Below, one piece after another: positions 1,345-33,299 of a stretch of 38,732 nucleotides of DNA. The stretch's first letter is position 1. The number at the start of each line of letters is the position of its first letter. The notes beneath the pieces are model-generated. The model had not been told where the DNA came from and ran no database searches. It saw only the letters and a program-made list of their open reading frames with translations. A program made the position numbers and the translations under genes. The stretch comes from Patescibacteria group bacterium (GTDB lineage Bacteria > Patescibacteriota > Patescibacteriia > Buchananbacterales > SURF-54), in the NCBI GenBank assembly GCA_018818885.1, contig JAHIRB010000007.1, positions 82,357 through 121,088 on the forward strand, given 5' to 3'.

Positions 1345-3033
1345 TCATTTAATTTTTATTTGATACAAGCTTTCGTTTTCAAATATTTTCTGCCTATCGA
1401 CAAATTTTAGCCCGTAATCATTTAAAATTTCTGCTTCCCAAAAAGCCAAATCTTCTTCTGCCCAATATGTATAATAGTAAACCGGCACTTGGTCAATAAC
1501 CCTGGGGAGTAATCTTAGTAAATCTTCGTTTTGCAAGCTTGGCATTACTCTTCTTTGCGGAAAGAAAATTTTATCTGAACGTTCAGAAATTATTATTGAA
1601 TCTTCGGGGGTAATGGCAAAAACTTTTTCTGCCTTTACATAATATTCATCAATTCTTTGTTTGACTGCTATTATACTCTCATCTGTTTTAAACATAACAA
1701 GGTTGATTGAAAAGAAAGCAAAATACAGCAAAAGCAAAACTGCTACAATTGGTTTTAGATATTTTAACTTAGCAAACTTAATAATTTCAGTAATCAAAAA
1801 TCCAATGAATGGTAAAGAAAAAATATAAATAAATAAAAAATATCGTAAGTACGATGTACCCAAAGAAACTACCTTGGGATCTAGCCTATCAATAATACGC
1901 CAGCTACCGTAATAGATAATTAAAAACGCAGAAACAAATATAAATATAAGTAGATATGATCCAAGTATTTGTTTTGAAAATTTTGAATCTTCTTCTTTTT
2001 GAAATAATCTTACAAGATAAATTAATCCTCCAAAACAGGTAGGAATAAAAAACCACCAAAAAAAGAATGGGTAATAAGTATAAAAATTTAAAATCGCACG
2101 TTGCGGATGAAAACCAAATGGTAGTAAGTAACCCTTAAGTAAATTAACAATTGGATTTGAGCTTTGCTGTACAGAAATTGGCGCAGTAACTCCTTCATCA
2201 ACTTCTTCATTGATAACAGATTGAAAAGTAGCAGCAGGGACTTCCTCATAGCCTGTAGCAAATGGTGAAGAATATAAAACTTGATTAATTGTTAAAAGCA
2301 TAATTGCACATAGCGCAAGTACCGCAAAGCTAGAATATATGTATCTGATCTTGATTTGTTTGTAAAAGAAAGCAAAAACTAAAAAATATGCTGGTAACAT
2401 CCAAAGCATTTCCGAAACCCGGCTAATAATAGCTACTCCCAAAAGCGCAGCTGCTATTACCACGTAAATTGTTTTTTGATCTTTGAGTGTTTTAATCAAA
2501 AAATATATCGAGATTATAAAAAGATCAATTACAAAAACATTGTGATACATGGAACGGCTGGTATAAACCCAAAACGCAGGAAAAATAAATAATAGCAAAC
2601 TTGAAAACAGCGCAATATTTTTATTAAATATTTCTTTGAGTAATAAATAAAAAAAGATTACTGTGATTGCAGAAATTAGCGGTGTTAAAAAAATAATTAT
2701 TCCAGTTCCAAATATTTTTCCCAGTAAACCATAGAACAAAGTCATACCCAAAAAACTTACAGGTACTAAGTAAGAATTGATAACCGTAACACTGCGTGGA
2801 TGGACATTACTGTTGGCAACTAAATTTAACGGTTCAAAATATCTAAGAGTACCTTGATCTGCCAACAATTTTGTAAAAAAATAATTCCCTGTTGCATCAG
2901 GAGAATTAAAAATGATCCTACCTCCTTTAGCACCTACAAATTGGTGATATGGTAAGTAGGAATATATAGCAAAAAATACTACAGCCAAAAGTGCTAAAAT
3001 GATTAAATTTTTATCTAAATTAATTGATTTCAT
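1345..3033 (-). CDS. GT-C membrane glycosyltransferase (PMT/ArnT-like, GT39 type)
   Basis: This 562-aa protein has about 11-13 predicted membrane helices and a soluble C-terminal tail (about residues 460-562). The N-terminal helix is followed by an extracytoplasmic loop with D46 in SPDATGNYF, the position where GT-C enzymes keep an acidic catalytic residue. HPRS (about 78-81) and a hydrophilic loop near 265-290 are also typical. Family members transfer sugars from polyprenyl-phosphate donors on the outer face of the membrane; the acceptor here is unknown. The start codon directly abuts the inverted repeat of the GIY-YIG element (3034-3335), and the GIY-YIG frame ends 14 nt inside this gene, so translation is probably coupled. 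GGGG lies immediately before the ATG, too close to serve as a normal Shine-Dalgarno site. Confidence 0.8.
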   Translation of the reverse strand: MKSINLDKNLIILALLAVVFFAIYSYLPYHQFVGAKGGRIIFNSPDATGNYFFTKLLADQGTLRYFEPLNLVANSNVHPRSVTVINSYLVPVSFLGMTLFYGLLGKIFGTGIIIFLTPLISAITVIFFYLLLKEIFNKNIALFSSLLLFIFPAFWVYTSRSMYHNVFVIDLFIISIYFLIKTLKDQKTIYVVIAAALLGVAIISRVSEMLWMLPAYFLVFAFFYKQIKIRYIYSSFAVLALCAIMLLTINQVLYSSPFATGYEEVPAATFQSVINEEVDEGVTAPISVQQSSNPIVNLLKGYLLPFGFHPQRAILNFYTYYPFFFWWFFIPTCFGGLIYLVRLFQKEEDSKFSKQILGSYLLIFIFVSAFLIIYYGSWRIIDRLDPKVVSLGTSYLRYFLFIYIFSLPFIGFLITEIIKFAKLKYLKPIVAVLLLLYFAFFSINLVMFKTDESIIAVKQRIDEYYVKAEKVFAITPEDSIIISERSDKIFFPQRRVMPSLQNEDLLRLLPRVIDQVPVYYYTYWAEEDLAFWEAEILNDYGLKFVDRQKIFENESLYQIKIK

Positions 3034-3304
3034 CCCCGTTAGAAATTTTTATACTCTTTAAATGATTCTTTAATCTATTATTAATATATCTTTTTCCCAT
3101 CCCTGATTTTAAATATTTTTCTCTAGCTTTTGCGTCTTGTTTATTGTAACACACCTCATAATAAATTAATTGTAATGGCCTTCTGGTTTTAGTAGAAAAT
3201 ACTAAACCATTGTCGTGCTGCTTTTTTCTATTTTTTAAATCATTTGTGTAGCCAGTATAAAATTTATTATCTTTCAAACTCAATAGTACATATACATAAT
3301 ACAT
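3020..3304 (-). CDS. Small GIY-YIG nuclease-fold protein (UPF0213/YhbQ-like) carried in an inverted-repeat element
   Basis: This 94-aa protein has the GIY-YIG signature: YVYVLLS (residues 3-9) then FYTGYT (15-20), the catalytic Arg of the LKNRKKQH segment (23-30), and the Glu of AREKYLKSG (60-68). The length fits the free-standing UPF0213 type rather than UvrC. The last residues, KISNG, are encoded by the left terminal repeat itself, and DEIN by the first bases of the downstream gene, which it overlaps by 14 nt. Its own start lies 4 nt after the stop of a nine-residue leader frame (3309-3338). Such proteins are very common in CPR genomes and are often annotated only as excinuclease-like. Here it is the best candidate for the enzyme that mobilises the element (inference). 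Confidence 0.85.
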   Translation of the reverse strand: MYYVYVLLSLKDNKFYTGYTNDLKNRKKQHDNGLVFSTKTRRPLQLIYYEVCYNKQDAKAREKYLKSGMGKRYINNRLKNHLKSIKISNGDEIN

Positions 3305-3335
3305 ATTTTCAAAATTTAAAAATTTCTAACGGGGT
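3034..3335 (-). mobile_element. GIY-YIG inverted-repeat element inserted at a start codon (element A)
   Basis: A perfect 18-bp inverted repeat bounds the block: CCCCGTTAGAAATTTTTA at 3034-3051 and its reverse complement at 3317-3334. CAT lies on both sides (3031-3033 and 3336-3338). The left CAT is the ATG of the downstream glycosyltransferase. The right CAT is an ATG placed 6 nt after a TGCTATAAT promoter, exactly where a leaderless start would be. The simplest reading is an insertion that duplicated the ATG. Read on the minus strand, the duplicated ATG opens a nine-residue frame, the GIY-YIG gene starts 4 nt after that frame's stop, and the GIY-YIG frame exits through the other repeat and overlaps the displaced ATG. 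Three smaller elements in the window share this design. Confidence 0.7.
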
Positions 3336-3338
3336 CAT
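3309..3338 (-). CDS. Nine-residue leader frame of element A
   Basis: ATG followed by codons for TPLEIFKF and then TGA. The ATG is the outer duplicated start codon, 6 nt downstream of the -10 at 3345-3350, so the transcript would begin at or next to it. The next ATG (GIY-YIG) lies 4 nt after the stop, which permits termination-reinitiation. There is no evidence that it makes a functional peptide; its likely role is relaying ribosomes. Confidence 0.35.
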   Translation of the reverse strand: MTPLEIFKF

Positions 3339-3344
3339 ACAGAT

Positions 3345-3353
3345 ATTATAGCA
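3345..3353 (-). promoter_or_regulatory. Extended -10 promoter TGCTATAAT, probably leaderless
   Basis: On the minus strand TGC plus TATAAT is followed by ATCTGT and then ATG (3336-3338). A transcript would start at the A of that ATG. No convincing -35 is visible; the region upstream holds the U-tract of the dapB terminator. Before insertion of element A this promoter would have served the glycosyltransferase at 1345-3033 directly. Confidence 0.6.
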
Positions 3354-3421: not shown

Positions 3422-4249
3422 CTAGATCTTAAAGCCACAAACATCGAACTGTGTGTACATGCCATTGGGGTTTTCCGCCGCAAACATTGCTGCTTGCAAA
3501 AACCCGTCGGCATAGTTTTCCCATGCCTGAGCAGAGTGTGTGATTACAAACTTTTCAGGCAAGTCGGGATGGTAGAAACGAAATTCGTGTTCAGCCAGAA
3601 ATGATTTCCCGGCTCTAAGGGCATGAACTGCTATTTCTTCGAACGTTCGCGGTCCAAGTTTGCCATGGCGGCCGAAGATTACTACGTCGACACAACGACC
3701 TGCCACCAAACAGATCATTTCGTATAATGTCACCGCGGTCCCGCTGGGTGAGTCGGGCTTGTTACCGTGGTGGACATCAATGATCTCCAGTAGCACATTC
3801 TTGCCGAAGAGTTTCATAAAATTGACTGCCGTGCCGATAGCGAATATCACCCAAGCGTTCATATTGGTGCTATACACGAGGGGGATGTGCTTCGAGGCTG
3901 CTTTCAGTGTTTCTTGTTCGATATCATCGAGCCCAGTTGTTCCGCAGACATATGCCACACCGAATTCTGTGCATATTGCTGCATGACCCGCGGCTGTATC
4001 AGCATCGTTGACAGCCGACACCACCACCAGGGCTCTACCCTTTCCGTCGTGATCTTGGTAAGTGGTAAGAGCGTCTCTCAGATCGCTATCGATTTTCTCC
4101 TCGCTCTCATCAGAGTGCGAGGGATGATCAGGATGCTCGACCTCCGCATAAATTGAAAAACGCTCATCGCCGAAGGCAGCATTACTGATCATTTTTCCCA
4201 TTCTACCACGGGAACCTACTAGTATTAAGTCTACCCACTCATGTGTCAT
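3422..4249 (-). CDS. dapB: 4-hydroxy-tetrahydrodipicolinate reductase (DapB)
   Basis: This cytoplasmic 275-aa enzyme would reduce the product of DapA with NAD(P)H in lysine and diaminopimelate synthesis. Seen: the N-terminal Rossmann motif VGSRGRMG (11-18), CGTTG (102-106), and the hallmark EIIDVHHGNKPDSPSGTA (155-172), in which H160/H161 and K164 correspond to the catalytic His and Lys of the family and SGT binds substrate. The C-terminal HSAQAWENYADG block is also present, and the length is normal. Base composition is about 50% GC against about 30% around it. It has a perfect AGGAGG site 8 nt before the ATG, its own promoter and its own terminator. No other lysine-pathway gene is in the window. 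This points to recent horizontal acquisition as a one-gene unit. Confidence 0.92.
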   Translation of the reverse strand: MTHEWVDLILVGSRGRMGKMISNAAFGDERFSIYAEVEHPDHPSHSDESEEKIDSDLRDALTTYQDHDGKGRALVVVSAVNDADTAAGHAAICTEFGVAYVCGTTGLDDIEQETLKAASKHIPLVYSTNMNAWVIFAIGTAVNFMKLFGKNVLLEIIDVHHGNKPDSPSGTAVTLYEMICLVAGRCVDVVIFGRHGKLGPRTFEEIAVHALRAGKSFLAEHEFRFYHPDLPEKFVITHSAQAWENYADGFLQAAMFAAENPNGMYTQFDVCGFKI

Positions 4250-10692: not shown

Positions 10693-11370
10693 TTATTTTT
10701 TTGATATTACTTTACTTAAAAATAGATCGGATACTATTTTAATCGAATTAAACACGCTTTGACCTTTTTGTTTTGAATATTCAGTATAGCGCATAGTTAC
10801 TGGTACTTCTTGAAATTTTAATTTATGTTTTTTTATTTCTTGAATCACTTCTGTTGCATGCGCCATTTTATCCTGATTTAATTCTATTAGATTAATTGCT
10901 TTTTTTGAAAATGCTCTAAAACCATTATGTGCATCTGATAATTTTACACCTACAAAAAGTCTCTCAAATAATATTCCACCACGTAATACTATTTTTTTTA
11001 TTAGTGGAACATTAGACTTTCTTTCCATAAATCTAGAACCTAAAGCTACATCTATTTGTCCAATGAGTAAAGGTTCAATAATTTTTGCAACTTCCTCTGG
11101 TTTATTTTGTCCGTCTGCATCAAAAGTTACGACGATATCTGCGCCCACTTTTTTTGCATAATCAAATCCTGTCTGTAAAGCTGCGCCCTGGCCCCTATTT
11201 ATAAAATGCCGTAAGACTACGGCACCAGCATTTTTAGCAATTTGACTTGTATTGTCTTTTGACCCATCATCAACTACCACTACTTCGTAATTAAATTCAT
11301 TTAAACCTTTAACTACTTCACCAACCATTTTTTCCTCGTTATAGGCAGGAACAACAATTAATATAAGCAT
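10693..11370 (-). CDS. GT2-family polyprenyl-phosphate glycosyltransferase (DPM1-like)
   Basis: This 225-aa enzyme would move a hexose from a nucleotide sugar to polyprenyl phosphate, giving a donor for GT-C enzymes. Seen: VVPAYNEE (6-13), VVDDGSKDNT (32-41), the DxD motif in FDADGQ (83-88), and LSDAHNGFRAFSKKA, typical of the DPM1 subfamily. It lacks C-terminal membrane helices; the adjacent DUF2304 protein may supply them. Its ATG (11368-11370) directly abuts the 120-bp inverted-repeat element B, which now separates it from the upstream epimerase gene. A frame from that element overlaps it by 13 nt. Confidence 0.88.
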   Translation of the reverse strand: MLILIVVPAYNEEKMVGEVVKGLNEFNYEVVVVDDGSKDNTSQIAKNAGAVVLRHFINRGQGAALQTGFDYAKKVGADIVVTFDADGQNKPEEVAKIIEPLLIGQIDVALGSRFMERKSNVPLIKKIVLRGGILFERLFVGVKLSDAHNGFRAFSKKAINLIELNQDKMAHATEVIQEIKKHKLKFQEVPVTMRYTEYSKQKGQSVFNSIKIVSDLFLSKVISKK

Positions 11371-11423
11371 ACCCGGTAGTAGTCCCGTAAATGGAATTTA
11401 TAATTTTTATTAACCATACTCAT
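11358..11423 (-). CDS. Second micro-frame of element B, overlapping the next gene
   Basis: Twenty-one codons beginning MSMVNKNYKFHLRDYYRV. The frame runs through the terminal repeat and stops 13 nt inside the GT2 gene. It starts 4 nt after the stop of the first micro-frame and has AAGGAT just upstream as a possible ribosome site. The counterpart in element D begins MINKYNKSHLRDYYRVC. Part of this match is forced by the conserved repeat DNA. Confidence 0.35.
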   Translation of the reverse strand: MSMVNKNYKFHLRDYYRVCLY

Positions 11424-11490
11424 ATCCTTACATATTTGATTTATTTAGTTGTTCAATAGTGATATTAATTTTTATGGGATCACTACCGGG
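11371..11490 (-). mobile_element. 120-bp inverted-repeat element at a start codon (element B)
   Basis: The ends are imperfect inverted repeats: ACCCGGTAGTAGTCCCGTAA from 11371 and, read from the other end, CCCGGTAGTGATCCCATAA from 11490. CAT flanks both sides (11368-11370, the ATG of the GT2 gene, and 11491-11493). Without the element the epimerase stop would be 7 nt from that ATG, a normal operon junction. The element shares both ends and part of its interior with element D (31143-31253). It encodes no transposase, only two 21-codon frames arranged as a relay from the outer ATG to the inner ATG. It looks like a miniature, non-autonomous element. Confidence 0.75.
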
Positions 11491-11493
11491 CAT
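11428..11493 (-). CDS. First micro-frame of element B, starting at the duplicated ATG
   Basis: Twenty-one codons starting MPGSDPIKINITIEQLNK and ending TAA. The ATG is the outer CAT-strand triplet, 7 nt after the epimerase stop. The counterpart in element D starts MPGSDPVKFNITI. Conservation beyond the terminal repeat (NITI) is suggestive, but the peptide may have no function beyond bringing ribosomes to the next frame. Confidence 0.35.
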   Translation of the reverse strand: MPGSDPIKINITIEQLNKSNM

Positions 11494-11500
11494 AACAAAA

Positions 11501-12520
11501 TTATTTTTTAGTTACATCCAGTAAACCCTTAGCTGCTTTAAGGTAATCAATAGTTTTAGATATTCCATCCTCTAATCTTACCACCGGAAACCAACTCAAT
11601 TTTGTTTTTGCAGTGCTGATATTAGGTAAGCCTAAAGGTGACATAAATAAAAGTGGTTTTTCAAATTTAATTTTTGACTTTGATCCAGTCATCTCTATGA
11701 TCTTTTTTGCAACATCAGAAAGTTTATATTCAATATCACTTCCTAAATTTACTGGGTCTGAAACAGTAGAAGACATCATTTTAATTAATCCTGTGATAAT
11801 ATCTGACACATAACACAAGGAAGTTGTAAAATTTTCATCACCATAAATAATAATATCTTGATTGTCAAGTGCGTTATCTACAAAATCAGGTATCATTTGT
11901 CCATCATCTAATTTTAGTCTTGGGCCATAAGTTCTAAAAATTCTGGCAATTTTTGCATCAATATTGTATACATCGCGATATGTAGAAACCATGGTTTCTG
12001 CAAAACGTTTACCTTCGTCGTAACATGCACGTGGTGAAAGCAAATCAACATTACCAATATGATCTTCTGTAAAATTTTTCTGTTCTTCGCCTCTTGGACC
12101 ATAAACAACAGAAGATGATGTAAATAATATTTTTGCTTTGTATTTTACTGCCAAATCTAACGCATGTTTTGTTGCCAAACAACTACTTAGTAAAGTTTCA
12201 ATTTTTGTTTTTTCAAAATTCTTAGCAGATGTTGGACAAGCTAAATGATAAATTTCTTGTATACCTTGAAACTTAACTTTAAATACCTCTAATTCGGAAA
12301 AACTTTCAAGATCGATATCTTCAATTAAATCATGTTTAATAAATTTAAAATCTGGATCTTGCAGCAAATTATCAATATTTTTTTCATCACCAGAAATAAA
12401 ATTATCGATACATATCACCTTGCTAGTTTTTAGTAATTCTTCGCACAAATGAGAGCCCACAAAGCCAGCTCCACCAGTTACAATCACATTTTTTTTATCA
12501 AATATTGCTTTTTTTGCCAT
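11501..12520 (-). CDS. NAD-dependent epimerase/dehydratase, UDP-glucuronate decarboxylase-like
   Basis: This 339-aa extended short-chain dehydrogenase has the NAD motif GGAGFVG (16-22), the catalytic serine region TSSSVVYG (134-141), and Tyr167/Lys171 in CYDEGKR. The CYDEGKRxAE and RIFxTYGPR motifs are characteristic of UDP-glucuronate decarboxylases (UXS), which make UDP-xylose. Other nucleotide-sugar epimerases of this family remain possible; for example, the usual RIFNTYGPR is RIFRTYGPR here. It has its own promoter (12543-12572). Its stop is followed by element B, which separates it from the GT2 gene it was probably coupled to. Confidence 0.82.
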   Translation of the reverse strand: MAKKAIFDKKNVIVTGGAGFVGSHLCEELLKTSKVICIDNFISGDEKNIDNLLQDPDFKFIKHDLIEDIDLESFSELEVFKVKFQGIQEIYHLACPTSAKNFEKTKIETLLSSCLATKHALDLAVKYKAKILFTSSSVVYGPRGEEQKNFTEDHIGNVDLLSPRACYDEGKRFAETMVSTYRDVYNIDAKIARIFRTYGPRLKLDDGQMIPDFVDNALDNQDIIIYGDENFTTSLCYVSDIITGLIKMMSSTVSDPVNLGSDIEYKLSDVAKKIIEMTGSKSKIKFEKPLLFMSPLGLPNISTAKTKLSWFPVVRLEDGISKTIDYLKAAKGLLDVTKK

Positions 12521-13594: not shown

Positions 13595-15844
13595 CTATTT
13601 TAAGATTGCAGGTCGAACACCACCGAGATATGTTGCGCTATGCAGTATCATTTGCTTATTTTTTACACCACGTTGATTAAAAAATATTACTTCTGAATTT
13701 CCACCCTTATTTTTTGCTACAATAATTTCTTCTGTATCATCACCATTGATATCAGCAGACGTGATGTTTAAACCATTATTGAAATCATGAAAAGCGTAAA
13801 AATCATATAGTAAATTTCCGCTAAAAGTAAAAATCTTAACATGGGGAGAGCCCTGTGATGCTGTAACTGTAATAACCTCGTTGATACCAACACCATCTAC
13901 GTCTCCAGACGCAACTTTTACACCACCAGTAAAATTATTTTGATAAGCAAAGAATTGTCTCTTAATATTTCCGTATTGATCAAACACTCTAACGTGAGGT
14001 CCACCACCTGGTCCTGCACCTGTGATTATTTCATTTTTTTTATCACCATCTACATCTCCGACCGCTACGTTAACACCACCTACAAAACCTGGCACATAAG
14101 CAAAAAATTCTGATTTTAGATTACCTTTATTATCAAACACTCTAACGTGAGGTCCACCACCTGGTCCTGCACCCGTAATTATTTCATCAACATTATCTTT
14201 ATTGATGTCACCAACAGCAATATTTACTCCTCCCTTAAAGTAACGATTATACGCAAAAAAATTATTTTCTAAATTACCAAATTCATCAAAAACTTTTATT
14301 TGTGATACACCACCTTCTCCCATACTTGTAATAATTTCTGATTTACCATCACCATCCACATCTCCTGTTGCAACATTGACTGCACCATTAAAATTTACTG
14401 CGTATGGATAAAAACCTCTTAGATATTCGTTTTGTAAATTGAATATTTTTACCTGTGGTACAGAACCAAAACCTAAACCAGCTACAATGCGTACATCTTG
14501 ATCTGCTTTCTTGGGATCACCGTCATTGCCAGAAGAGGCATACGATGACAGTGCATTAACTGCGCGATATATATTTAATCTACCTAATCCTAACTTTCCA
14601 ATATATTCAAGATTTAAAGTATTTATATTATCTGCATTATCAAGAACTAACTTCTCTAAATCAGTATTTATCAAATTAGCATTGAGAGATTTTAAAATTG
14701 CCATTGTACCTGCTACTAGTGGCGCAGAAACAGATGTGCCCGACCAATTGCCATCGTAAAAATTACTGTATCCATATTCTTTTGGATTATACACACTTAA
14801 ACCAAAAAAGTTCTCTCCAGGAGCAGAAATATCAATACAACTATTTCCATAATTAGAAAATCCTGCTTTAAGATCCTGATCATCAACTGAAGCAACACCA
14901 ATTACCATATTTTCACCATTTTCTCCATCGTAGCAAACTGGGTAACTTTTTGTTTCGTCAAGATTAATTCCCTGAATAGATGAATCAGTGTTACCAGCGG
15001 CTGCAACAATTACTATGCCATCGTCATAAGCTTTCTTTATTTCATCATAAAGTGCTTGGCTATAATCTAAACCAACAAAACTCATATTAATGATATCTGC
15101 ACCATTTTCCCTGGCGTAAGCAACTGCCAAAGAAACATCATAAAGATTACCTCTACCCACACTATCTAATGCTCTTAGGGCCATAATTTCTGCATCCCAA
15201 CTTATACCAGCAACGCCTTCGTTATTATTCCCAGCTGCTGCGGCAATACCTGCTACCAATGTGCCATGGTTAATGCCGTCTTTGGTATAGCGCAATCCAA
15301 ACTTAGGATTAGGATCAGGGATTTTGTTTACAAAATCCCAACCAAAAATATCATCAACATAACCATTGGAATCGTCATCTCTATTGTTTCCTGCAATTTC
15401 TTTATTATTTTGCCACATCTGGTTTTTTAGATCAGGATGATCTGTATCAACACCTGTATCGATTACAGCTATCACAACTTTATTATTAATACCATGAAGT
15501 TGTTTTTCTAATAGTTCCTTAGACCATGCACTTTTTGCATTAATCTTTCTTAAATAAATTTGATTATTATAATATTCGTCGTTAGGAAAAGCTGTGATGT
15601 TGTATTGGTAATTAGGTTCAACATAATCTACGTTCGGATCGTTTAGATATGACGAAATAATTGTATCTAATTCAATATCATTTTCAAATGAAATTTTATA
15701 CAAGCTACCAGTTTTTAATCTTACAATTAATTCATTATTTAGATCTGAATCATGCTTACTTTGAGCAACTACAAAATTTAACGATAAAAAAAAGAAGCTT
15801 ATCACAAAAATTATAACTATGCTTCTATATTTATACAAACTCAT
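13595..15844 (-). CDS. Secreted subtilisin-family (S8) protease with FG-GAP/VCBS repeats
   Basis: This 749-aa exported protein has an N-terminal signal segment (about 7-28), a short propeptide-like region (30-90), and a complete S8 catalytic domain: D129 in VIDTGVD, H193 in INHGTLVAG, the oxyanion Asn in AAAGN (285) and S371 in SGTSVSAP. From about 450 to the end there are five or six repeats of about 55-60 residues with DVDGDGKSEIIT-type loops (DxDxDG, calcium binding) and GAGPGGGPHVRVFD, the FG-GAP beta-propeller type. No LPXTG or other anchor is seen at the C-terminus. It probably processes or displays surface proteins. It lies 11 nt after the O-antigen-ligase gene and 2 nt before gtrA. 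Confidence 0.93.
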   Translation of the reverse strand: MSLYKYRSIVIIFVISFFFLSLNFVVAQSKHDSDLNNELIVRLKTGSLYKISFENDIELDTIISSYLNDPNVDYVEPNYQYNITAFPNDEYYNNQIYLRKINAKSAWSKELLEKQLHGINNKVVIAVIDTGVDTDHPDLKNQMWQNNKEIAGNNRDDDSNGYVDDIFGWDFVNKIPDPNPKFGLRYTKDGINHGTLVAGIAAAAGNNNEGVAGISWDAEIMALRALDSVGRGNLYDVSLAVAYARENGADIINMSFVGLDYSQALYDEIKKAYDDGIVIVAAAGNTDSSIQGINLDETKSYPVCYDGENGENMVIGVASVDDQDLKAGFSNYGNSCIDISAPGENFFGLSVYNPKEYGYSNFYDGNWSGTSVSAPLVAGTMAILKSLNANLINTDLEKLVLDNADNINTLNLEYIGKLGLGRLNIYRAVNALSSYASSGNDGDPKKADQDVRIVAGLGFGSVPQVKIFNLQNEYLRGFYPYAVNFNGAVNVATGDVDGDGKSEIITSMGEGGVSQIKVFDEFGNLENNFFAYNRYFKGGVNIAVGDINKDNVDEIITGAGPGGGPHVRVFDNKGNLKSEFFAYVPGFVGGVNVAVGDVDGDKKNEIITGAGPGGGPHVRVFDQYGNIKRQFFAYQNNFTGGVKVASGDVDGVGINEVITVTASQGSPHVKIFTFSGNLLYDFYAFHDFNNGLNITSADINGDDTEEIIVAKNKGGNSEVIFFNQRGVKNKQMILHSATYLGGVRPAILK

Positions 15845-31041: not shown

Positions 31042-31139
31042 ATCTCGTTCATATTAAGAGTGGTAAACATTCAAAAAATTATCCATAAAAAAAATTATTA
31101 TTATAAAATATACTTACTATTTGAATTTCTACTGCCCGG
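31007..31139 (-). mobile_element. 133-bp inverted-repeat element at a start codon (element C)
   Basis: The ends CCGGGCAGTGAAAATTCAAA (31008-31027) and, read from the other end, CCGGGCAGTAGAAATTCAAA (31139-31120) match at 18 of 20 positions; the only difference is GA against AG after the 9-bp core. CAT flanks both sides (31004-31006, the GT4 start codon, and 31140-31142). The first frame from the outer ATG reads MPGSRNSNSKYIL. The interior is AT-rich and unrelated to elements B and D, so this is a second family with the same plan. Confidence 0.72.
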
Positions 31140-31189
31140 CATACCCGGTAGTAGTCCCGTAAATGGGATTTGTTATATTTATTAATCAT
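31079..31189 (-). CDS. Second micro-frame of element D, reading into element C
   Basis: Thirty-six codons beginning MINKYNKSHLRDYYRVC. The first part matches the second frame of element B. It passes through the terminal repeat of D and the shared CAT and ends inside C. Probably it once overlapped the GT4 ATG before C was inserted. Confidence 0.3.
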   Translation of the reverse strand: MINKYNKSHLRDYYRVCRAVEIQIVSIFYNNNFFYG

Positions 31190-31253
31190 ACTTATATTTA
31201 TGTTTATTACATTACCTTATAGTGATATTAAATTTTACGGGATCACTACCGGG
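31143..31253 (-). mobile_element. 111-bp inverted-repeat element, same family as B (element D)
   Basis: The ends ACCCGGTAGTAGTCCCGTAA (from 31143) and CCCGGTAGTGATCCCGTAAA (read from 31253) are those of element B, again with AG against GA after the 9-bp core CCCGGTAGT. CAT flanks both sides (31140-31142, shared with element C, and 31254-31256). Interior similarity to B (GTGATATTA next to the right end; AGTATG(G/A)TTAATAAA on the minus strand) shows common origin. C and D stacked at one site imply two successive insertions at the same ATG. Confidence 0.75.
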
Positions 31254-31256
31254 CAT
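31212..31256 (-). CDS. First micro-frame of element D, starting at the outer ATG
   Basis: Fourteen codons, MPGSDPVKFNITIR, then TAA. The ATG lies 3 nt after the stop of the upstream glycosyltransferase gene, so ribosomes ending there could restart here. It matches the first frame of element B over 13 positions with two changes. Confidence 0.35.
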   Translation of the reverse strand: MPGSDPVKFNITIR

Positions 31257-31259
31257 AAT

Positions 31260-33299
31260 TTAATAAATTTGGTAAAGATAAAAAAATCCATACTCTTTGT
31301 ACTTTTCTACAAACACCTCTTTAAATAAATCTGGTTTTTCTCTGATTTTTTCCAATAGATTTGCTAAGCTTTGCGGTAAAATGTAATTATTAACTGCTAT
31401 GTACTTTATTTTACTTGCGATGAAAATTGAATGGATTTCTTCTGCAGAAAGATTTTCGTTATACCTTAAGCCTGTTAAATGATTAAATTCTGGATGATTG
31501 ATCCTCATCGCTTGATAATTTTTATACCATATTAAATAATCAACATCTCTGGCAATAATATAAAAACTATCTTTGGGGGAAGTTTCATTTTCTTCTAAAT
31601 ACTTTACAATACCATGATTGCCATTATAAACATGCGAAACAGGTAAATTAATATTTCCTTGATTTATATAATAAACTATTGCCATGCCCCATGAATTCAA
31701 CAATAAAATTATTATTACTACTGGTATCAAAATCTTTTTTACGTTGACATCCTTATACTTACTAATAATTGCATAACATGCAATAAACAACAAAATAAAC
31801 AAAATTGGCAGCCAAGTATTAACCCAACTTTTATTAAATATCCAAGTCAGAGTGAGAATGTATAAACAATAAATTGAAAGTAGAATAATCTTTGATTGTT
31901 CAAATTTCTTATATACAATGTACAATAAAAAAGGAAACATAATTATTAAGACTGCCAAAGGGTTGTTATGCATAAAATCAACTATAAACAAAAATGGACT
32001 AAATAAACCTTCGACTCCTAATATAAACTGGCTAGTAGATCTTGTCAAAGGAGTTTTAAGTAATACTCCCAAAGCTAGCAAGTGAAGTAGCAATAAGAAT
32101 AACTTTGATTTTAATTTCTCTAAACCTAATACTGCATAAATTATTAACACACCTAAAAACAAATAATGTCTTCTATCTGCATTCAAAGGAGCATACATTA
32201 CTGTTTCTTGTATTATAAAAAACAAAAATAAAGTGAAAAGAATTCCATATTTTCTATATTTCCACAACCCCCATAGCGCTAATAAAATAAATGGGTATGC
32301 TGTCATCATCAAATTGATATCGTGGACCGTACGTTTATGTATTGAATTTTCAAGTTCTGGAACACCAAATAATTTAAAATCTAAATTTTCTGTCATGTAT
32401 TGATCGTATGGACCGACAAAAACTCCTTTTAAGACTGGGAAAACTGGATTATTAAAAATTATAAAATTCCTTAATAGCCATATCAGTAGTGGTAAAGAAA
32501 TAATTACAACAATAATGATAAAATATTTTCTGGTTTTTTTACTTTTTAAAAATGCAAAAAATAATGGTATAACTAAAAAGAAACCAGTAACTTTTGACAA
32601 CGTAGCTAGAATAAAACTTATGGCTAGAAAAAACAAATTATGATTAGTCTTTTCCTCTAAATATTTATCATAATAATAGAAGAAGGCAGTAGCAAAAAAC
32701 AAAATTATTGATTCCTGCATCAGGTTCCATCCCCAGTAAGCTACTAATCTATTACATAAAACCAATAAGGGTATAAAGATTAAATACTCTTTTTTAATAC
32801 CCTTTTCTTTGGCCCACTTAAATAACAATACAGCAGTTAAGCCAGAAAATAATAAAGGAATCCACAAAGCAGTAAATGCCTGAAATGTATTAAATAAACT
32901 AAATGTGCTAGCAATTAATAAATAAAAAATTGGCTGTCTTGTTAGAGGTATCCATCTCCAATCTGAAACAGAGGTTGAGATTTCACCAATCTGCGCTAAT
33001 GTTCTGGAAATGGGCAGCCAAAACCAGGTAGCGTCACCTGCGATATAACCGCGCAACAGACCAAAACCAATTAGCGAAAATACTGCTAATGCTAATGCTA
33101 TGAAATGATATTTTTTTACTTTAATTTTTATCCTCAATAACGCGAAAGCAACAACAAAGACTGCTAAGTCAAAAAGTAACAACCATCTATTAAAGTATCC
33201 TAACAAACCTAGCAATAAAGCTACTGATACAATGTAATAAAAAAATAATAGTACCACTTCGATAAAATCTAGCTCTTTTTTAATCAATTTATTTAACAT
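31260..33299 (-). CDS. GT-C membrane glycosyltransferase (PMT/GT39-like)
   Basis: This 679-aa protein has about 14 membrane helices. The first extracytoplasmic loop holds GDATWFWLPISRTL with D89, followed by WRWIPLTRQPIFYLLIAS, the acidic and Arg-rich signature of dolichyl/polyprenyl-phosphate-sugar-dependent GT-C enzymes. A soluble C-terminal domain (about 570-679) follows. It is the first gene of a leftward unit with GT4 and GT-C genes; its stop lies 3 nt from the outer ATG of element D. Promoter at 33345-33374. Confidence 0.78.
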   Translation of the reverse strand: MLNKLIKKELDFIEVVLLFFYYIVSVALLLGLLGYFNRWLLLFDLAVFVVAFALLRIKIKVKKYHFIALALAVFSLIGFGLLRGYIAGDATWFWLPISRTLAQIGEISTSVSDWRWIPLTRQPIFYLLIASTFSLFNTFQAFTALWIPLLFSGLTAVLLFKWAKEKGIKKEYLIFIPLLVLCNRLVAYWGWNLMQESIILFFATAFFYYYDKYLEEKTNHNLFFLAISFILATLSKVTGFFLVIPLFFAFLKSKKTRKYFIIIVVIISLPLLIWLLRNFIIFNNPVFPVLKGVFVGPYDQYMTENLDFKLFGVPELENSIHKRTVHDINLMMTAYPFILLALWGLWKYRKYGILFTLFLFFIIQETVMYAPLNADRRHYLFLGVLIIYAVLGLEKLKSKLFLLLLHLLALGVLLKTPLTRSTSQFILGVEGLFSPFLFIVDFMHNNPLAVLIIMFPFLLYIVYKKFEQSKIILLSIYCLYILTLTWIFNKSWVNTWLPILFILLFIACYAIISKYKDVNVKKILIPVVIIILLLNSWGMAIVYYINQGNINLPVSHVYNGNHGIVKYLEENETSPKDSFYIIARDVDYLIWYKNYQAMRINHPEFNHLTGLRYNENLSAEEIHSIFIASKIKYIAVNNYILPQSLANLLEKIREKPDLFKEVFVEKYKEYGFFYLYQIY

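Follow-up and report, generated by a model that had tools for sequence, protein, structure and literature searches.

A GIY-YIG nuclease gene enclosed by terminal inverted repeats looks like a mobile element of about 300 bp, with relatives across bacterial phyla

The DNA analysed here (the window) is a stretch of 38,732 nucleotides on contig C34 of a 1.35 Mb patescibacterial genome (G000). It contains a small unit, bounded by terminal inverted repeats (TIRs) and encoding a GIY-YIG nuclease, at the start of a glycosyltransferase gene, with the following layout.

3034–3334, minus strand: the whole GIY-YIG element, 301 bp, with perfect TIRs and a flanking 4 bp direct repeat
3317–3334, minus strand: left (5') TIR in the orientation of the element, CCCCGTTAGAAATTTTTA
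3034–3051, minus strand: right (3') TIR, TAAAAATTTCTAACGGGG, doubling as codons for ISNG
3335–3338, no strand: target-site duplication, copy 1, TCAT (ATGA on the minus strand)
3030–3033, no strand: target-site duplication, copy 2, TCAT, which gives the glycosyltransferase its start codon
3020–3304, minus strand: GIY-YIG nuclease ORF, 94 aa (PF01541, E 4.9e-16)
3345–3350, minus strand: TATAAT box belonging to the glycosyltransferase gene that was invaded, read from the sequence; the element now lies between this box and the ATG
1345–3033, minus strand: invaded gene, encoding a PMT_2-type glycosyltransferase; the CDS is intact, its start codon kept via the duplication

The two TIR arms (CCCCGTTAGAAATTTTTA) are complementary at 18 of 18 positions, which confirms the perfect 18 bp inverted repeat that an earlier note had placed around the GIY-YIG gene, and they are nested in a 30 bp imperfect pair of arms with 83% complementarity. 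The ORF fills the interior of the element and reads on into the right TIR, and the sequence also bears out the claim that the repeat encodes the last codons of the gene before others are borrowed from the invaded gene: the protein ends in K-I-S-N-G-D-E-I-N-stop, the ISNG codons are supplied by the TIR, and GAT GAA ATC AAT TAA corresponds to the last TIR base plus the start of the glycosyltransferase gene, ATGAAATCAATTAA. The final codons and the stop lie outside the element, and the two genes overlap by 14 bp. The 4 bp TCAT direct repeat, absent from the earlier description, is positioned directly outside both TIRs; the duplicated bases are ATGA on the minus strand, and the glycosyltransferase therefore keeps its start. 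From the ORF list and a domain search, GIY-YIG is the sole ORF within the unit, which encodes no recognised transposase of the DDE, HUH, serine or tyrosine types; the domain search likewise returned no HUH/Y1 transposase, the criterion for RAYT/REP systems, in this unit. Adjoining the element is a DapB-like gene (3422–4249; PF05173, PF01113) with a GC content of 49% compared with 32% for the window, which is probably a recent import, and elsewhere in the window a subtilase-like gene (13595–15844) carries three 153 bp direct repeats at 13943–14386.

The 94-aa protein consists of a single domain and contains the conserved Y, Y, R, E and N of the GIY-YIG domain, with Y5, Y16, G18, R26, H30, E62 and N76 invariant across 21 members. 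An AlphaFold model (mean pLDDT 89) has the GIY-YIG fold, and the nearest solved folds are those of the UPF0213 protein BH0048 and the branched-DNA nuclease Slx1, followed by I-TevI, albeit with weak E-values; with phmmer, the protein matches 1zg2 (UPF0213/COG2827) over the domain with an E-value of 4.8e-6. A match to TIGR01453 is weak (E 0.001, below the cut-off), and an additional DNA-binding domain (NUMOD, zinc finger) is absent.

We examined the glycosyltransferase locus in other genomes and found a match to the protein in 31 of the 35 genomes searched, counting the source genome, with no GIY-YIG neighbour at any of the 29 loci retrieved in addition to the window. At two of these (L053, L063) a TATAAT motif precedes the ATG by about 10 and 5 nt, respectively, with nothing inserted. 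These relatives are distant, the best having 37–40% protein identity, and the comparison demonstrates absence of the insert rather than a base-exact empty site. The source genome itself has 16 GIY-YIG matches, one of which is UvrC-like by length and 15 of which are small copies; only one copy has a TIR of the window type.

To place this element among its relatives, we assembled 114 small GIY-YIG genes with both flanks from the source genome and 34 related genomes; frameshifted or short forms (L185, L186, L191, L198, L129) were excluded from the intact-gene counts. A high-scoring inverted repeat spans the gene in 32 of the 114, where 1.4 are expected from permuted flank pairs, and no gene among the 166 others taken from these loci reaches that score (Fisher p 1.7e-14). 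Flanking repeats around related genes, as the earlier note had foreseen, are therefore present in a sizeable part of the sample, and the CCCCGTTAG...CTAACGGGG pair occurs preferentially around GIY-YIG genes, which for the most part argues against its occurring at random sites. CCCCGTTAG is not universal, and each protein clade has a TIR sequence of its own, the families including CCCCGTTAGAAA, CCCCGCACCTTTT and its variants, CCCCGCCCAAATTTT and CCCCGTAGTAG. Three loci with large inverted-repeat scores (L126, L038, L161) were set aside as GC-rich local palindromes that do not form clean TIRs. A second class of repeat around small GIY-YIG genes resembles TGTCATTGCGAGGAG: genes of clade B (for example L092, L096, L114, L024 and L035) are embedded in REP-like repeats, TGTCATTGCGAGGAG / TGTCATCCTGAGC, and clade B may be the mover of this widespread repeat. 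The REP-like string GTCATTGCGAGGAG had no match in the papers searched. At another locus (L012), tandem GC-rich palindromes, CGCCTCTGGCGGACAAAGCCGGAGGCG, lie upstream of the GIY-YIG gene within a damaged tRNA copy.

We then scanned 84,980 species genomes using the TIR pair alone, as CCCCGTTAGAAA-N231..291-TTTCTAACGGGG with 12+12 fixed bases. This blind scan returned 38 other stretches in about ten phyla, including Patescibacteria, Omnitrophota, Bacteroidota, deltaproteobacteria, Planctomycetota, Cloacimonadota and Nitrospirae, compared with an estimated 0.06 or so chance matches (equal frequencies of the four bases assumed, with 24 fixed bases and 61 spacings over 257 Gb). A GIY-YIG gene is enclosed in 26 of the 38 (E below 1e-14); 12 are without one, among them several runs of solo hairpins that share these ends. 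The elements with TIRs of the window type sit in unrelated flanks across phyla, and the cultured carriers, all Bacteroidota, are Flavobacterium segetis DSM 19741, Brumimicrobium mesophilum and Fodinibius salsisoli. Within 380 genomes of the phylum, the window TIR pair is found in two and its reversed control in none, and the second family, CCCCGCACCTTTT, gave three matches, all three with a GIY-YIG gene, and none with the reversed pattern. A tblastn search gave no matches in phages and two weak matches in plasmids, and on this basis phages and plasmids are not, as far as sequence searching can tell, the main carriers.

We compared the TIRs with the nucleases using a tree that comprises 135 small GIY-YIG proteins, on which the TTAG-type TIR requires only two changes (shuffled mean 22.3, with 0 of 500 shuffles as low), a figure to be read with the few alignment columns, the many unresolved forks and the preselection of the blind-scan members by TIR in mind. 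This TIR type is confined to one protein clade, which spans phyla, and the three TTAG members found by protein (the window, L130 and L136, the last being the L192 locus) place in that same clade. The GCCC and TAGT types each lie on one side of a branch. The two TIR arms also covary beyond the searched letters, agreeing at position 13 in 100% of cases compared with 65% when permuted, and at position 14 in 63% compared with 34%. In six members the right TIR is translated as ...LTG, with the stop coming from the first target bases. Taken at the level of sequence, each nuclease clade is shown to have its own TIR, and this co-evolution of TIR and protein clade supports recognition of the TIRs by the nuclease.

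Direct repeats of at least 4 bp are present immediately outside the ends of 15 of 38 elements (ends taken as CCCCG...CGGGG, with the window included and one element at a contig end left out), whereas permuted right flanks give a mean of 1.96 and a maximum of 7 in 2,000 permutations. Examples are TAAG, TATG, TGAA, TAAA, TTGA and TTCG, with further instances at L244 (TTGA) and L245 (TCAA), and at L192 the duplicated bases are TGCTAA, at a CIRCE-like repeat that precedes a gene taken, from its sequence, to be hrcA. The length is not strictly fixed, as the duplication is below 3 bp in about half of the elements, with others having 2–3 bp or none. Four insertions in Bacteroidota (L165, L167, L189, L196) have a 2 bp duplication only, and none is visible at L129, which takes the place of the h6 hairpin in a 16S rRNA gene where relatives have a short hairpin (e.g. 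CGTGTAGCAATACACG), or at L243, within the 5' portion of a gene for RNase P RNA (rnpB).

Gene starts are one class of target, with 19 of 52 insertions within 8 nt of one compared with 16% of random positions, and the gene is mostly downstream and in the same orientation. The earlier suggestion that the nuclease cuts at sites containing a start codon is upheld to this extent, although not as a general rule, since -35 boxes, 16S rRNA h6, rnpB and recombinase genes are also hit: TTGA is duplicated at a -35-like TTGAC in four cases (L025, L144, L169, L244), and other targets are IS91-type or integrase genes. The common denominator of the targets is a short sequence, often starting with T.

Removal of the inserts gives a further view of the target sites. 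In L165, L167, L189 and L196, deletion of the element plus the 2 bp duplicate yields a continuous reading frame, presumably that of an IS91-type transposase as judged from its motifs, and in L195 deletion of the element together with TAA restores a frame that we recognise from motifs as presumably integrase-like. One insertion (L194), at the ATG of a gene for an ABC-transporter-type ATPase, is missing from a genome of the same genus; the nearest empty sites are at the level of genus or farther, no fresh insertion was seen in one strain relative to another, the L192 family offered no relative close enough for such a comparison, and a search for an empty site within the same Brumimicrobium genome returned occupied copies only. 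In that genome the element together with the surrounding transposase-like gene is present twice (L167 and L196) with flanks 97–100% identical, as if the element were hitch-hiking with its host transposon.

Hairpins with the ends of the element and no gene are found alongside the nucleases. In the source genome, a 71 bp solo unit (C35:27775–27845; L020) has the same ends as the element and a TCAA duplication, and another genome (G007) has 14 perfect 28 bp palindromes together with the TTAG-clade nuclease L130. The 14 palindromes do not count as independent insertions, as 12 are in one larger repeat, leaving about three independent contexts, and duplications at these palindromes are not above chance. 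In these loci (L215–L228), a repeat of about 100 bp, GCGGATTWA...TAGACGCGG, has the perfect 28 bp CCCCGTTAG palindrome in its middle, so that the repeats are nested. We conclude that the solo hairpins are, from their sequences, probable non-autonomous counterparts of the GIY-YIG elements. The window itself has two gene-less units of about 110–120 bp (11367–11507 and 31139–31270) which share imperfect TIRs, CCCGGTAGTNNTCCCGTAAA, where shuffling expects none; CATA flanks both and one abuts a start codon. By appearance, both are non-autonomous units related to the TAGT-type GIY-YIG elements.

A different arrangement is seen in the approximately 42 clade-A genes that have no TIR, 35 of which have a tRNA or tmRNA gene no more than 150 bp away, always on the same strand. 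In several of these cases the 5' part of the tRNA is repeated on the opposite side of the GIY-YIG gene, the copy ending at nucleotide 35–36, in the anticodon loop. At seven loci (L002, L040, L120, L158, L006, L032, L147), small GIY-YIG genes next to tRNA genes accompany tRNA copies that are partial or interrupted by a hairpin, with the break close to the anticodon loop.

We interpret the unit as an autonomous mobile element of about 300 bp, composed of TIRs and one single-domain GIY-YIG nuclease gene, a reading to which we would assign a probability of roughly three in four from the sequence comparisons. The idea of a mobile unit with the GIY-YIG nuclease as its sole protein, raised in the earlier note, gains support from the flanking repeats (32/114 versus 0/166), the blind scan (26/38), the duplications and the tracking of TIR and clade, and the same TIR and duplication counts favour its use as an explanation for many of the orphan GIY-YIG genes of CPR genomes. 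An unlikely alternative is a free-standing homing endonuclease that cuts an element-free allele and is copied in by homologous repair, with the repeats incidental or part of its recognition site. GIY-YIG is a classic homing nuclease domain, the sub-threshold TIGR01453 match points the same way, and the TIR-less clade-A members beside tRNA genes with partial tRNA copies resemble a site-specific invasion. However, the TIR-bounded members of one clade are at unrelated sites with no single allele, homing does not predict 4 bp duplications, and what is conserved along with the protein is the TIR and not the flank. Slightly less probable is that the gene is cargo in MITE- or REP-like TIR hairpins moved by some other transposase, as could be proposed from the solo hairpins (28 bp, 14 times in G007; 71 bp in the source genome) and the 12 of 38 TIR pairs without a gene; against this, the element encodes no other protein, the TIR class follows the GIY-YIG clade across phyla, and the 26/38 and 3/3 blind matches hold this one gene.

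We regard it as very improbable that these are ordinary host DNA-repair nuclease genes flanked by terminator-like or RNA-stabilising repeats. The usual annotation of the domain is repair-like and the nearest solved structures are UPF0213 proteins, but other genes in the same loci have no such repeats (0/166), unrelated flanks carry the same TIR, and insertions are found in rRNA, rnpB and recombinase-type genes. The letters CTAAC/GTTAG in the TIR, and some insertions within integrase-like genes, could suggest an integron-cassette-like unit in which an integron integrase acts on an attC-type core to move it, although we give this almost no credence: the core is absent from the sister TIR families CCCCGCACC and CCCCGCCC, the repeats are on both sides of the gene and not 3' only, the window has no integron, and 4 bp duplications are a misfit.

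For an autonomous GIY-YIG element, a plausible mechanism has the TIRs, possibly extruded as a hairpin, recognised by the element's own nuclease and the element ends cut by it, such that the element would be cut out or copied. A staggered break, made or used by the nuclease, would lie in a short target sequence (TTGA, TATG, TAAA, TGAA or similar), and filling of the stagger by host repair would give the target duplication. We know of no GIY-YIG enzyme that joins DNA ends, and the ligation step would therefore probably be supplied by the host, or else represent a new activity. Insertions may survive where the duplication rebuilds the interrupted signal (a start codon or -35 box) or, alternatively, where the TIR stem stands in for an RNA hairpin (16S h6, RNase P RNA). 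An ORF that, as is often the case, runs through the right TIR and borrows the stop codon of its target could provide a functional gene within about 300 bp, and the same nuclease may mobilise solo hairpins in trans.

The best neighbours in both sequence and fold are the UPF0213/COG2827 proteins (BH0048, 1zg2; EF2693, 1ywl), which are likewise single-domain GIY-YIG proteins of about 90 aa; to our knowledge, no TIR-bounded unit or target duplication has been linked to them. GIY-YIG homing endonucleases (I-TevI and the T4 Seg proteins) share the catalytic domain, a selfish DNA role and invasion of conserved genes, but the elements here have no extra DNA-binding domain and occupy many unrelated sites, with TIRs and short duplications, rather than one allele. 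REP/REPIN sequences with RAYT, and IS200/IS605, are similar in having palindromic ends, and also solo hairpins that a single small nuclease presumably mobilises in trans; the enzyme there is an HUH tyrosine nuclease rather than GIY-YIG, and the short target duplications seen here are not made by the IS200/IS605 type. Classical DDE insertion sequences with MITEs share TIRs, short duplications and non-autonomous copies, but the nuclease fold is different here and there is no DDE protein; the GIY-YIG element is also smaller than any insertion sequence known to us. Penelope-like retroelements contain a GIY-YIG domain within a mobile element, although the elements here have no reverse transcriptase. 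In CPR rRNA genes, non-intron inserts with a GIY-YIG ORF, mostly at stem-loops, have been described and judged to be outside spread by homing (PMC11270868). L129 is a case of such an insert, but that study (PMC11270868) mentions no inverted repeats, whereas the inserts here are TIR-bounded and extend beyond rRNA. We found no prior description of a TIR-bounded GIY-YIG element in the searchable open literature, a scope that excludes preprints and most subscription papers, and the unit seems to be a jumping gene of a previously undescribed and extremely compact kind.

We lean slightly towards a broader reading. In it, single-domain GIY-YIG nucleases from across bacterial phyla would provide the mobility function for a superfamily of minimal ~300 bp DNA transposons and for REP-like hairpins, sister lineages would invade tRNA genes close to the anticodon loop, and the cut-and-insert chemistry would be new for the fold. 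The cultured carriers, F. segetis DSM 19741, B. mesophilum and F. salsisoli, make the idea of a GIY-YIG element directly testable. If true, it would provide a function for one of the commonest types of orphan gene in CPR genomes, account for the non-intron inserts with GIY-YIG genes in CPR rRNA genes, and offer a candidate mover for hairpin repeats with no known transposase; the element might then be smaller than any other autonomous DNA element, and its nuclease has a fold with no known role in transposition.
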